From contig PWYL01000001.1 in the NCBI GenBank assembly GCA_003568315.1, forward strand, positions 1 through 39,565: 39,565 bases of DNA, written 5' to 3'. Made by a program: the position numbers and the translations under genes. Under the pieces are notes generated by a model. That model was not told the origin of the DNA. It ran no database searches and saw only the letters and a list, made by a program, of their open reading frames with translations. The stretch comes from Mollicutes bacterium. GTDB taxonomy: Bacteria > Bacillota_I > Bacilli_A > Izemoplasmatales > Izemoplasmataceae. Position 1 is the first letter of the stretch, and the number at the start of each line of letters is the position of its first letter. Of this stretch, positions 26,724-31,109 are shown piece by piece.

Positions 26724-26752
26724 TTGACAATTTTCTTTCGCGGGCATAGACT
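26724..26752 (+). promoter_or_regulatory. Promoter of the cobalamin-riboswitch operon
   Basis: TTGACA (26724-26729) and TAGACT (26747-26752) are separated by 17 bases. Transcription would begin about 26759, at the 5' edge of the riboswitch. Confidence 0.8.
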
Positions 26753-26759
26753 GTTCATG

Positions 26760-26955
26760 TAGGAACCAGGTCCCATAAAGGGATAACAGGGAATCGGGTG
26801 TGAATCCCGAGCTGTCCCAGCAACCGTGATTCGGACGAAATGCAAAAGACCACTGCCAAAGCGGGAAGGTGCAGAGTAGGACGAAGATAAGCCGGTAGAC
26901 CTACCTGGTATCCACGAGAAGTCTGCACTCCTGGGTATGAGTGGAGCGGTTGTCT
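26760..26955 (+). promoter_or_regulatory. Cobalamin riboswitch aptamer
   Basis: The core elements of the cobalamin (B12) riboswitch appear in order: GGTCCC..AAAGGGATAACAGGGAA, then GGTGTGAATCCC, AGCTGTCCCAGCAACCGTGA, the B12-box region with ACCACTGCC, and GATAAGCCGGTAGACCTACC. A terminal hairpin CACTC/GAGTG (about 26926-26943) resembles the peripheral element that kisses the core. With the intrinsic terminator at 26993-27016 it should switch off the operon when cobalamin is abundant. It points to the downstream genes being for B12 uptake. Confidence 0.95.
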
Positions 26956-26992
26956 TTTTTGCGTTTTTCCCGTCAAAGGAGACGATTGTCAC

Positions 26993-27016
26993 ACCATCCA
27001 GGAGGATGGTTTTTTT
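26993..27016 (+). terminator. Riboswitch-controlled intrinsic terminator
   Basis: A 7-bp stem ACCATCC/GGATGGT with an AGGA loop is followed by six more T. It stands between the aptamer and the first gene and is the likely expression platform. I could not identify a unique antiterminator pairing by eye. Confidence 0.88.
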
Positions 27017-27047
27017 CATTTCATATCTTATATAACAGGAGGAAATC

Positions 27048-28148
27048 ATGAAAAAACTGTTCTCACTGGTCACGATCCTTTTTGTCTTTTTCATCCTCGC
27101 CGCTTGTCAGGGTGAGACTATCACCATCGTCGTGGTGGATGACGAGAACATCCTCGAAGAAGAGGTCGCCTTCCAAGAAGAGACATCCCTTTTCGATCTA
27201 CTGAAAGAGACTTTCGAGGTGGAATATGTCGAAACCGACCACGGCCCCATGATCCTGGGTGTCGGTCCCCTCACAGCCGAACACGAGGGCAGTTTCATCC
27301 TTTTCGAGAAGAACGACGAGAGTGCTTCCGCCGGTGTCGATGCCGTGAATGTGTCACCCGGCGACACGTTCCGCTTCTCCCTCGGTTGGTACGATGATGA
27401 TGCCCGGGCCGTTCATGAGACCATCAGGGCCTTTCGGAAGAACCATGCCGCGGACTACATCGAAAAGCCTCAGAGGGAAGCCGTTTTGGCTCTCGCACAT
27501 CTGGATGAACTCGAAGGTTTCGTACCGCCCGAGGATGATGCGGCGGAGAAGGATGCCAACGCGCTTGTCAACGCCATCATCCTGCGACACATCGCCGAAG
27601 AGGCGAGTGACGACTTGTATGCCGCGCTTGTCGACAAGGCCGTATTGGTCCATCCTTATCCGGATGCGCTTATCCGGATCGTCTTCAGTTTGCATGAAGG
27701 CTCCCTTGGCGGGGAGTTCTCCACAAAATGGCTGGACGACTTGCGAGCACAAGACCTCGATGAGATTGATACGGACACGCTCTCCATGATCCTTCTCGCT
27801 TTGACCCACGAGACCGCCCCCGACGGTACCGAAGACCTTCAAGACGAAGTGCTCTCTCTCATTTTTGCAAACGTCTACGATAACGAGTTCGGTCACAACG
27901 CCGCGGGCTTCGCCATGGCGACCATGGCGCTCCTTGCGGCGGGGACGGATCCTCGGGATGAAGGTCTTGTCCATGAGGGAGAGCACCTTCTCGGCCACCT
28001 ACTCTCTTTTGCCAACGAAGACGGCAGTTTCAACTACCAAGATGAGACCGACCTGGACTTTTCCACACCACAGGCCGTTCTCGCCCTTGTCATGATGCAA
28101 AAGTTCCTTGACGGCACAGAAGCGCCACACCCCTTTGAACTCCCTTGA
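27048..28148 (+). CDS. Lipoprotein with DUF4430 and alpha-toroid domains (transcobalamin-like)
   Basis: A 366-residue exported lipoprotein. The signal peptide ends in lipobox LAAC with Cys20 as the lipidated residue. Residues about 22-112 look like a DUF4430 domain (TITIVVVDDENI, then TSLFDLLKETFEVEY), the fold of the C-terminal domain of transcobalamin and intrinsic factor. Residues about 115-366 are helical, with repeated A-L-A-L patterns and a DGSFNYQDETDLDFSTPQAVLAL segment typical of alpha/alpha-toroid (terpenoid cyclase-like) domains, the other half of those proteins. The order is reversed relative to the animal proteins. Placed directly behind a cobalamin riboswitch, it is probably a surface B12-binding protein for the ECF subunit at 28547; this is inference. 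AGGAGG precedes the ATG. Confidence 0.8.
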   Translation: MKKLFSLVTILFVFFILAACQGETITIVVVDDENILEEEVAFQEETSLFDLLKETFEVEYVETDHGPMILGVGPLTAEHEGSFILFEKNDESASAGVDAVNVSPGDTFRFSLGWYDDDARAVHETIRAFRKNHAADYIEKPQREAVLALAHLDELEGFVPPEDDAAEKDANALVNAIILRHIAEEASDDLYAALVDKAVLVHPYPDALIRIVFSLHEGSLGGEFSTKWLDDLRAQDLDEIDTDTLSMILLALTHETAPDGTEDLQDEVLSLIFANVYDNEFGHNAAGFAMATMALLAAGTDPRDEGLVHEGEHLLGHLLSFANEDGSFNYQDETDLDFSTPQAVLALVMMQKFLDGTEAPHPFELP

Positions 28149-28160
28149 GCCGGTGATACC

Positions 28161-28550
28161 ATGAAAATCGCGTTGAGCCTTTTCGTCGTCGCTTTGGCTT
28201 TGGGAGCCTACTTTTTCTTCTCCCCTTTTCAAAGCGACGAAGAAGGCGTCATCACCATCGAGATCCATGATGAGAACGAGAATCTCGTTGCCCGCGACGA
28301 ACATCCTTTCGACAAGGATGATTCGCTTTTCACCGTTCTCGATGAGCACTATGAAATCATCTTTGAAGAGCGTTACATTCGTCCCGGCTTTAGTGGGAAG
28401 ATACTGCTCGCGATCGATGGTGTCGAGACGGATTTCGCGACCACGTTCATCTATATCGAGAAAGACGGAAAAAAAGCGTTGTACGGCATTGACGATCTGC
28501 CTTTGGAAGACGGCAGCGTCTATACGTTCCGGGTGCGTGATGTCGAATGA
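28161..28550 (+). CDS. Membrane-anchored DUF4430 domain protein
   Basis: A 129-residue protein with an N-terminal hydrophobic anchor (residues about 4-22) and no lipobox cysteine, then one domain resembling DUF4430 (ITIEIHDENENLV, SLFTVLDEHYEI, YIEKDGKKALYGIDDLPLEDGSVYTF). The same elements occur in the previous protein, so this is a second copy of the beta domain without the helical half. It lies 12 bases after the lipoprotein gene and overlaps the ECF gene by ATGA, so it probably acts with them on the outer face of the membrane. A weak GGTG serves as ribosome binding site. Confidence 0.75.
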   Translation: MKIALSLFVVALALGAYFFFSPFQSDEEGVITIEIHDENENLVARDEHPFDKDDSLFTVLDEHYEIIFEERYIRPGFSGKILLAIDGVETDFATTFIYIEKDGKKALYGIDDLPLEDGSVYTFRVRDVE

Positions 28551-29116
28551 GAAGACCTGACGCGAAACCCTTGCGGCGGCTCATCCTGCTCGCGATGTGT
28601 GCGGCGATCCTCTATGTCCAGCAACAAGTCCTCGCCTTTCTGCCGAACGTCCAGTTCACGACCATGCTCGTGATCGTTTTTGCGAGTGTCTTCACTTTCA
28701 AGGAGACGGTGTCCCTCGTCTTCGTCCACGTTTTCCTCGTGAATCTCATCAGTTTCGTCGGCGGCGGGTTCAACCCCTTGGTGTTGACCCCGATGCTTCT
28801 GGCGTGGCTTCTCGTCCCCATCGCCTACAACACGTTCTTGCGGAGGACGAAGAACGAAGTCGCCCTAGCTTTCTTCGCTTTGTTTTTCGGTTTCATCTAC
28901 GGATGGGTGTTCATACCTTTCACGATGTTGCAGGTGGAGGTTTTCGAGTTCTGGCCCTATCTTCTCGCCGACCTCCCCTTCGAGATCATCATGGGGACAA
29001 GCGGATTCCTGACTGTCCTTTGGCTGTTCAAGCCCCTACATCGCCTTCTTCGTCGCGAAATCGCCTCTATCGAGAAAGACGGAGCATCCCCGACCGAATC
29101 CGACGATTTCTCATGA
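28547..29116 (+). CDS. ECF transporter S component, predicted cobalamin-specific
   Basis: A 189-residue protein with about six membrane helices, from RLILLAMCAAILYVQQQVLAFLP to TSGFLTVLWLFKPLHRLL, and short charged ends. Size and topology fit substrate-binding S components of energy-coupling factor transporters; LLAMCAAILYVQQ at the N-terminus resembles the helix that docks on the EcfT subunit. The cobalamin riboswitch and DUF4430 partners suggest B12 or a precursor as substrate, like CbrT. No EcfA or EcfT genes lie in the window, so it would share an energising module encoded elsewhere (group II arrangement). No terminator is visible directly after it. Confidence 0.78.
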   Translation: MRRPDAKPLRRLILLAMCAAILYVQQQVLAFLPNVQFTTMLVIVFASVFTFKETVSLVFVHVFLVNLISFVGGGFNPLVLTPMLLAWLLVPIAYNTFLRRTKNEVALAFFALFFGFIYGWVFIPFTMLQVEVFEFWPYLLADLPFEIIMGTSGFLTVLWLFKPLHRLLRREIASIEKDGASPTESDDFS

Positions 29117-29249: not shown

Positions 29250-29259
29250 GGGTATGGAC

Positions 29260-29721
29260 ATGTTCTCTCCCCAAACCTACCGCGTGTTCGCGGAAATCAC
29301 CTTGGGTGTCCATCTTGCATATGTTCTTTTTGTCGTCGGTGGGCTCGTTTTGATATGGATCGGCTGGATGATGGGCTGGTCTTTCACACGCAACCCCTAT
29401 TTCCGTTGGGCCCATATCGTCGCAATCGCTTTCGTCGTTATCGAGGAAGCCTTCGGAATCCGTTGTCCCTTGATAACGCTCGAGTACTATTTCTTTGGCC
29501 GGGCGAGAGTCGATGCCCCCCCCCTTGAAAAAACCCTCATCATGCGCCTTTTCGAGAGCGTTCTCTACTACCGGCTGCCCGATGCCTTCTTCACCTTCCT
29601 CTATTACTTCTTCGGGGCCATCATCTTCATGACATTCTTTTTCCATCCACCCCGGCTGAGGAAGCCCCCGAGAATGAGGGGTGCCAAAAGACGGTGCAAG
29701 AAGATTCTTTCCCCTCGTTAG
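29260..29721 (+). CDS. DUF2784 family membrane protein
   Basis: A 153-residue membrane protein of unknown function. Three to four hydrophobic helices are visible (AEITLGVHLAYVLFVVGGLVLIWIG..., AHIVAIAFVVIEEAFGI, and the C-terminal FFTFLYYFFGAIIFMTFFF). The motif EEAFGIRCPLITLEYYFFGRA matches the E..xG..CPLT..E signature of DUF2784, and HLAYVLFVVGGL the first helix. The tail is strongly basic. ATG 29260 is preferred to 29254 because AGGG at 29249-29252 gives it proper spacing. It appears to be a one-gene unit ending at the terminator at 29757. Confidence 0.8.
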   Translation: MFSPQTYRVFAEITLGVHLAYVLFVVGGLVLIWIGWMMGWSFTRNPYFRWAHIVAIAFVVIEEAFGIRCPLITLEYYFFGRARVDAPPLEKTLIMRLFESVLYYRLPDAFFTFLYYFFGAIIFMTFFFHPPRLRKPPRMRGAKRRCKKILSPR

Positions 29722-29915: not shown

Positions 29916-31109
29916 ATGGCTATCATTTCTATGAAACAACTTCTCGAAAGCGGTGTCCATTTCGGACACCAGACCCGTCGGTGGAACCCGAAAATGGCGA
30001 AATACATCTACACCAAGAGGAACGGGATCCACATCATCGATTTGCAACAGACCGTGTCCTTCATCGAAGATGTCTACAACCAATTCCTCAAGATGGGCAA
30101 GGAAGGCAAGAAGGTCCTTTTCGTCGGCACGAAGAAACAGGCTGTCGACACCGTCAAAGAGGCGACCACCCGTGCCGGCCATTATTATGTGACCAAGCGC
30201 TGGCTCGGTGGCCCCCTGACGAACTTCAAGACCATCCGCAAGAGTGTCCGTCGTTTACAGACCATCGAGAAATGGGAGACCGACGGAACCTTCGAACGTC
30301 TGCCGAAAAAAGAGGTCGTCCAGCTCAAAAAGGAGATGGACCGTCTCGAGATGTTCCTTGGCGGTATCAAGGAGATGCGCACGCTTCCCGATGCCGTGTT
30401 CATCGTCGACACCCGGAAAGAACACAATGCCGTTGCCGAAGCCCGCAAGCTGAAGATTCCCATCTATGCCATGGTCGACAGCAACTGCGACCCCGACGAG
30501 ATCGACCACATCATTCCGGCGAACGACGATGCCATCCGCTCCATCAAAGTCATCGTCAACAAGATGGCCGACGCCCTCGTCGAAGGTGCCGGCGGTGCGG
30601 AAGAAGAGGCAGAAGCCGAAGCGAAGGAAGAGAAACCCGCAGATAAGAAAGAAACGAAGGAAGAAGAGAAAAAACCCGCGAAACCCAAGACCAAAGATGA
30701 CGTGAAGAAGGCCCTCGAGACTTCGCCCGCCAAGGCGAAGAAGGAAAAAGAGGTCAAGAAGACCCCCGAGAAGAAGGCAGAAGAGAAAGCGGAGGCTCCC
30801 GCTACCAAGAAGAAAGCCCCCGAGAAGAAGACAGAAGAGAAAGCGGAGGCTCCCGCTACCAAGAAGAAAGCCCCTGCGAAGAAGACCGAAAAGAAAGCGG
30901 AGGCTCCTGCGACCAAGAAGAAGGCCGAGCCGAAGAAAGAGGCCGCACCCAAGAAAGAGGCCGCACCAAAGGAAGAGGGTCCTGCAAAAAAAGCGGAGAA
31001 CCTCGAGAAACTCACTGTCCCCGAACTTCGCGAACTCGCCAAAGAAAAGGGTATGACCGGATATTCGAAACTCCGAAAAGCTGAACTTGTCGAGGTTTTG
31101 AAAAAATAG
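29916..31109 (+). CDS. rpsB: 30S ribosomal protein S2 with repeat tail and Rho-N/SAP-like C-terminus
   Basis: The first 225 residues or so are a normal S2 ([61 protein letters not shown]). The protein then continues to 397 residues, about 150 longer than most S2 proteins. The extension is rich in Lys, Glu, Ala and Pro, includes three tandem 18-residue repeats, and ends (residues about 360-397) in [18 protein letters not shown] and [14 protein letters not shown], which fits the Rho N-terminal/SAP helix-extended-loop-helix pattern, a nucleic-acid-binding fold. The tail is in frame and continuous, with a terminator just after it, so it is not an assembly artefact of two genes. ATG 29916 follows AGGAGG. 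Confidence 0.95.
30768..30929 (+). repeat. Three tandem 54-base repeats inside rpsB
   Basis: Copies at 30768-30821, 30822-30875 and 30876-30929 each encode an 18-residue unit of the type [18 protein letters not shown]. Copies 1 and 2 differ by very few bases; copy 3 has more silent and conservative changes. This indicates recent expansion, and copy number may vary between strains. Confidence 0.9.

Follow-up and report, generated by a model that had tools for sequence, protein, structure and literature searches.

As a rule, the S components of energy-coupling factor (ECF) transporters capture their substrates alone. ECF-CbrT of Lactobacillus delbrueckii, characterised in 2018, imports cobalamin and cobinamide (PMC5997447, PDB 6fnp); its genes lie in the cluster nrdJ-cbrS-cbrT-pduO, and in E. 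coli it rescues growth that depends on cobalamin, although no dedicated binding protein is described for it (PMC5997447). Burroughs et al. 2007 (PMC1796856) predicted that transcobalamin-like SLBB proteins of low-GC Gram-positives scavenge B12. In these proteins the toroid may lie on either side of the SLBB domain; the operon often contains a further paralogue, and CbiO/CbiQ genes are neighbours. The paper also predicted that animals acquired transcobalamin from such bacteria. Here we analyzed a stretch of 39,565 nucleotides from a Mollicutes bacterium of the Izemoplasmataceae (contig PWYL01000001.1; hereafter the window), in which a cobalamin riboswitch precedes three linked genes, P1, P2 and P3. 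The window is one contig of a 1.41 Mb draft metagenome bin (96.6% complete). Its named relatives place the organism among Candidatus Izimaplasma / Izemoplasmatales and similar metagenome-assembled genomes. We propose that these genes form a B12-repressed operon for corrinoid uptake that combines capture at the cell surface with CbrT-type import (probability roughly 0.82).

A preliminary description, made from the sequence alone, had assigned the region to a riboswitch and terminator followed by genes for a DUF4430 plus alpha-toroid lipoprotein, a second DUF4430 protein with a membrane anchor and a six-helix ECF S-type protein. All of these assignments held up. The main features, in window coordinates, are:

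26751..26922, + strand: cobalamin riboswitch aptamer RF00174 (covariance model, 99.9 bits against a cut-off of 31.5, E 6e-24, full length over model positions 1-189)
27037..27042, + strand: Shine-Dalgarno AGGAGG of P1, from the sequence
27048..28148, + strand: P1, lipoprotein with lipobox LAAC (Cys20), DUF4430/SLBB at ~residues 22-116 and alpha-toroid at ~117-366
28161..28550, + strand: P2, single N-terminal membrane anchor with the DUF4430 domain outside
28547..29116, + strand: P3, six-helix ECF S component related to CbrT; its start overlaps the P2 stop by 4 bases

The structural model of P3 is six-helical (predicted local distance difference test, pLDDT, 91.4). Its best Foldseek matches were the S components RibU, PanT, FolT and BioY (template modelling (TM) score 0.5-0.6, probability up to 1.0, E 0.09 or worse), and its score against PF12822 was weak (18.1 bits, cut-off 30.7). 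CbrT was not among the S-component matches listed by Foldseek, so the fold search alone does not reveal the substrate. A profile of the near family (A1; P3 and 38 homologues) had no match in the PDB either, and membership in the CbrT family was at first unproved. This was resolved by intermediates from a survey of 392 genomes of the class, which link the P3 family to CbrT. The S proteins of one family in this survey (f10) matched CbrT (6fnp) with E 8e-25 for a single sequence and 2e-29 for their profile, and hhalign aligned A1 with them over 168 columns (probability 97.6, E 4e-12). A profile of P3 relatives free of any f10 sequences retrieved 6fnp as its sole PDB match at E <= 1 (E 2.4e-11), with no match to the PDB S components for riboflavin, thiamin, biotin, folate or pantothenate; with the f10 intermediates, the E value for 6fnp was 1.8e-24. 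Thus, by profile comparison, P3 belongs to the CbrT family of B12 S components. It is homologous to CbrT but far diverged, as the failure of A1 by itself in the PDB indicates. The window also differs from the system of PMC5997447 by two components that the paper does not mention, the cobalamin riboswitch and the toroid-DUF4430 lipoprotein.

The model of P1 (pLDDT 93.4, predicted TM score 0.88) consists of a beta-grasp domain and, after it, an all-helical toroid. Its top PDB match in Foldseek was the human transcobalamin beta domain, both with cyanocobalamin and without it (5np4/5no0; E 7e-5, root mean square deviation 1.7 A over 98-99 residues, TM 0.78 of target). The Ruminococcus DUF4430 protein 3u7z came next, and then intrinsic factor (3kq4/2pmv) over 270-278 columns. 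Structural matches to intrinsic factor and squalene-hopene cyclases support the toroid, which Pfam hardly detects (2 of 32 homologues). Against the DUF4430 profile (PF14478; cut-off 23.8 bits), P1 reached 22.9 bits as a protein, under the cut-off, and 26.4 bits in a six-frame search, above it; 29 of the 32 homologues matched, and Cys20 of the lipobox is invariant in all 32. Sequence similarity to transcobalamin was marginal (E 0.1-0.3). A phmmer search of P1 alone against the PDB gave no match, and an NCBIfam search returned no family name for P1, P2 or P3. P1 shares the beta domain fold and the alpha-toroid with human transcobalamin and intrinsic factor. In those proteins the toroid comes first, whereas in P1 the order is reversed, so P1 is not a member of their family; it is also lipid-anchored and would work with a membrane transporter instead of endocytosis. 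At two loci (L064:5999-7894 and L067:5616-7517), the P1 counterparts are ~630 residues long and contain several DUF4430 domains in tandem.

P2 itself scored weakly against PF14478 (13 bits), and its assignment to DUF4430 is via homologues only, 27 of 39 of which match. In the minimal f3 loci L069-L071, the P2 counterpart carries a lipobox in place of the membrane anchor. At locus L166, a MetH-like gene, a riboswitch and a P1 homologue are followed by a DUF4430::S fusion (L166:4994-6151; G434:C9). In this single frame of 385 residues, an anchor and a DUF4430 domain (7-153) are joined through a further hydrophobic stretch to an S component (208-368), a topology that would place DUF4430 at the outer face of the membrane, next to the S component. 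The fusion was seen once.

The following elements surround the aptamer:

26724..26752, + strand: possible sigma-70 promoter TTGACA-17-TAGACT, 10/12 consensus matches
26926..26943, + strand: CACTC-loop-GAGTG hairpin directly 3' of the aptamer, read from the sequence
26928..27004, + strand: long antiterminator helix that captures the 5' half of the terminator, predicted fold
26993..27017, + strand: intrinsic terminator hairpin and T-run (ACCATCC-AGGA-GGATGGT at 26993-27010, -12.4 kcal/mol)

The segment 26923-27022 folds with -40.8 kcal/mol (z -5.3), and no shuffled sequence folded equally well. Terminator and antiterminator folds are predicted to be mutually exclusive, and the leader layout is that expected of an OFF switch acting at the level of transcription. 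The CACTC-loop-GAGTG hairpin is a possible L13-type kissing-loop partner. In 36 of 39 homologous loci, the aptamer is likewise followed by a terminator hairpin, often a near-identical one. In the other three, the riboswitch may act on translation, since the open frame begins 13-20 bases past the aptamer. The promoter named in the preliminary description does exist as a sequence, but with 1.5 such sites expected by chance in the region it is no better than chance and no more than plausible. The RF00174 copy at the module is the only one in the host genome. Among relatives, the best-scoring riboswitch (121 bits; L081:2904-5037, G031:C7) lies upstream of two membrane proteins, the first of the YitT family, for which we know of no corrinoid role.

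Each of the 39 homologous loci that were scanned has a cobalamin riboswitch. The arrangement riboswitch-P1-P2-P3 is conserved in f1 and in some of f3 (two GTDB families, ~30 genomes), and it recurs in other families of the class. The neighbours vary: the flanking PLD gene is conserved within the genus only. Other f3 loci are minimal, consisting of the riboswitch, a DUF4430 lipoprotein and the S gene, and lack the toroid part of P1. Among 61 relatives, the riboswitch was found in 51, P3 and a B12-binding domain in 50 each, and NrdJ in 49. In family f2 (7 genomes, one genus), the riboswitch, P1, P3, B12-binding domains and NrdJ are all absent together, which counts as one evolutionary loss, not seven.

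In the class survey, DUF4430 occurred in 61 genomes, the riboswitch in 83 and the S family in 105. The S protein was present in 57 of the 61 DUF4430 genomes versus 48 of 331 others (Fisher p 3e-34), and the riboswitch in 45/61 versus 38/331 (p 7e-23), with counts that include related genomes and p-values that ignore relatedness. Of the three outcomes that the preliminary description named as refuting, two were checked and neither occurred: the DUF4430 and toroid folds are present, and homologues nearly always sit behind cobalamin riboswitches. An S gene lay on the same strand within 6 kb of DUF4430 in 54 of the 61 genomes, and a riboswitch was found upstream within 8 kb at 58 of 82 strong S loci. 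Family f10 has the parts split into a toroid protein, a DUF4430 protein and a CbrT homologue, with a riboswitch ahead in 6 of 11 loci. In small genomes that read TGA as tryptophan (L192:1712-2993, L193:1379-2543 and L194-L197), an S protein lies downstream of a cobalamin riboswitch. At L192 and L193, the gene between the two encodes a diverged protein that has no Pfam match but a DUF4430-like C-terminus, and a ribonucleotide reductase-like frame adjoins.

Several loci point to a corrinoid as the substrate. L151 has the order riboswitch-DUF4430-S-cobalamin adenosyltransferase, and L204 extends this to riboswitch-DUF4430-S-adenosyltransferase-ribonucleotide reductase (NrdJ), a gene set that equals the L. 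delbrueckii cluster if CbrS is the DUF4430 protein. L047 (1801-3444) and L085 (6087-8724) contain a second corrinoid operon of the form riboswitch-adenosyltransferase-DUF4430-diverged S. The one at L085 sits between the fabZ/dut region and rpsB/tsf, like the module in the window.

The host genome encodes consumers of the cofactor. NrdJ, the B12-dependent ribonucleotide reductase, scored 1330 bits (cut-off 854), and GlmS-GlmL-GlmE form a complete glutamate (methylaspartate) mutase operon outside the window (G000:C36:82316-85634; L097:2317-5635). Glutamate mutase is an adenosylcobalamin enzyme. A complete ECF motor is encoded away from the module: EcfA1 and EcfA2 exceed their NCBIfam cut-offs, and EcfT, which exceeds the PF02361 cut-off, adjoins them upstream of truA. 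At L137, L138, L149 and L150, the riboswitch and a DUF4430 protein are followed by EcfT- and EcfA-like genes, that is, by a dedicated rather than a shared motor. A true BtuC (FecCD permease, PF01032) was not found in the host genome, the best match being partial (33.5 bits); FecCD matches of ~30 bits were rejected as BtuC, as genuine copies in relatives reach ~300 bits. The P1-P2-P3 module is therefore the sole corrinoid importer found there. BtuFCD resembles the module in that a binding protein feeds an ATP-driven B12 importer, and in two f1 relatives (L082, L084) a separate cobalamin riboswitch precedes BtuFCD, with late corrinoid synthesis genes downstream. In contrast to this likeness in layout, the BtuFCD binding protein (PF01497) and permease (PF01032) are unrelated to the proteins of the module.

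On this basis we propose the following mechanism. When plentiful, adenosylcobalamin, the ligand expected for this riboswitch family, would bind the aptamer, the terminator would form and transcription would stop. When it is scarce, the antiterminator would form and transcription would proceed. P1, lipid-anchored at the surface, would clamp the corrinoid between its DUF4430 (beta-grasp) domain and the alpha-toroid, as in transcobalamin and intrinsic factor. P2, tethered on the outer face of the membrane, would dock on P3 and take over the corrinoid, a step suggested by the gene order and the natural P2::P3 fusion. P3 would then carry the corrinoid across the membrane, probably with the shared EcfA1-EcfA2-EcfT motor, and the imported corrinoid would serve NrdJ and glutamate mutase inside the cell. 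Corrinoid capture and import as the function of the module is well supported; corrinoid binding and hand-off are what we infer. The preliminary description had likewise proposed that surface proteins catch corrinoid and hand it to the S component, as a bacterial counterpart of transcobalamin uptake, and the analysis supports that interpretation.

The main doubt is that P1 and P2 may be helpful rather than required, because ECF-CbrT is functional in E. coli and its description names no dedicated binding protein (PMC5997447). P3 and the ECF motor would then be the whole transporter, and the role of P1 and P2 would be limited to concentrating, storing or protecting corrinoids at the cell surface, or to accepting them from other proteins. 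The several f3 loci that lack the toroid part of P1 fit such a role, and the toroid is dispensable, because the minimal loci hold only DUF4430 and S. We nevertheless regard a purely accessory role as doubtful, given that a P2-type DUF4430 is seldom far from S (54/61 genomes within 6 kb), is fused to it once, and in the window has a stop codon overlapping the P3 start. Further observations weigh against the proposed uptake system: no riboswitch was found within 8 kb upstream at 24 of the 82 strong S loci, four of the 61 DUF4430 genomes have no S homologue, the joint absence in f2 is a single event, and the survey counts include related genomes. DUF4430 proteins may also bind other ligands.

The identity of the cargo admits further alternatives. 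That the module imports another corrinoid or a precursor (cobinamide, pseudo-B12 or a lower-ligand base) and not complete cobalamin is unlikely in our view. CbrT also moves cobinamide (PMC5997447), and sequence cannot tell ligand identity, but NrdJ and glutamate mutase require the complete adenosylated cofactor. Moreover, the only late corrinoid synthesis genes noticed were those next to BtuFCD in two relatives, no search for them having been made in the host genome. A non-corrinoid ligand of DUF4430 (such as cobalt, heme or a peptide) was raised by a reviewer of Burroughs 2007 (PMC1796856); the riboswitch would then merely balance cobalt or metabolism. DUF4430 is a broad family, and 3u7z is annotated as a putative metal-binding protein. 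We consider this highly improbable, as the sole PDB relative of the S protein is the B12 S component CbrT and the neighbours at related loci are adenosyltransferase, NrdJ and MetH-like genes. Finally, the window is a single contig of a draft genome, and the gene order could have arisen by chance in one metagenome bin; its recurrence in two families and in further families of the class refutes this, leaving the idea a negligible chance.

The preliminary description knew of no well-described system with this exact layout. In the open-access literature, we found none in which the parts are described together; the novelty was overstated, however, as Burroughs et al. 2007 and the ECF-CbrT study of 2018 precede it. 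The module shares with the SLBB proteins of PMC1796856 the fusion of beta-grasp and toroid, the second paralogue, the ECF-type setting and the predicted B12 scavenging. In contrast, that paper mentions no riboswitch and associates the proteins with CbiO/CbiQ rather than with a B12 S component, and no S-protein fusion was noticed in it. In the same literature, we found no paper describing DUF4430 with an ECF S component and none joining Izimaplasma and cobalamin. The idea of a bacterial transcobalamin is therefore not new, having been predicted in 2007. New here are the riboswitch, the link to CbrT, the DUF4430::S fusion, the adenosyltransferase/NrdJ operons and the systematic co-occurrence; the CbrT tie, the fusion and these operons also go beyond the preliminary description.

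The proposed uptake system would unite the scavengers predicted in 2007 and the ECF-CbrT importer of 2018 in a single, testable machine and suggests that ECF vitamin importers can employ surface capture proteins. The heme importer LhaSTA, which we examined as a possible precedent for an ECF system with a capture protein, is reported to be independent of surface-displayed receptors. We see about even odds that the module represents an ECF class relying on extracytoplasmic delivery, in which DUF4430, docked on or fused to a CbrT-type S component, acts as a gate fed by a transcobalamin-like lipoprotein. If true, such a delivery subunit would break the rule that S components capture their substrates unaided, and it would point to the bacterial context in which animal B12 carriers may have originated, one where both domains of the human carriers would already work side by side. 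It would also provide a likely function for DUF4430 in many genomes of the Bacilli class and improve genome-based prediction of B12 dependence.

Directly downstream of the module, the window encodes a DUF2784 membrane protein (29254-29721) that is absent from the other loci examined. It is followed at 29916-31109 by ribosomal protein S2, which carries a C-terminal Rho_N domain (35.3 bits) and a long repeat linker rich in Lys, Ala and Glu.

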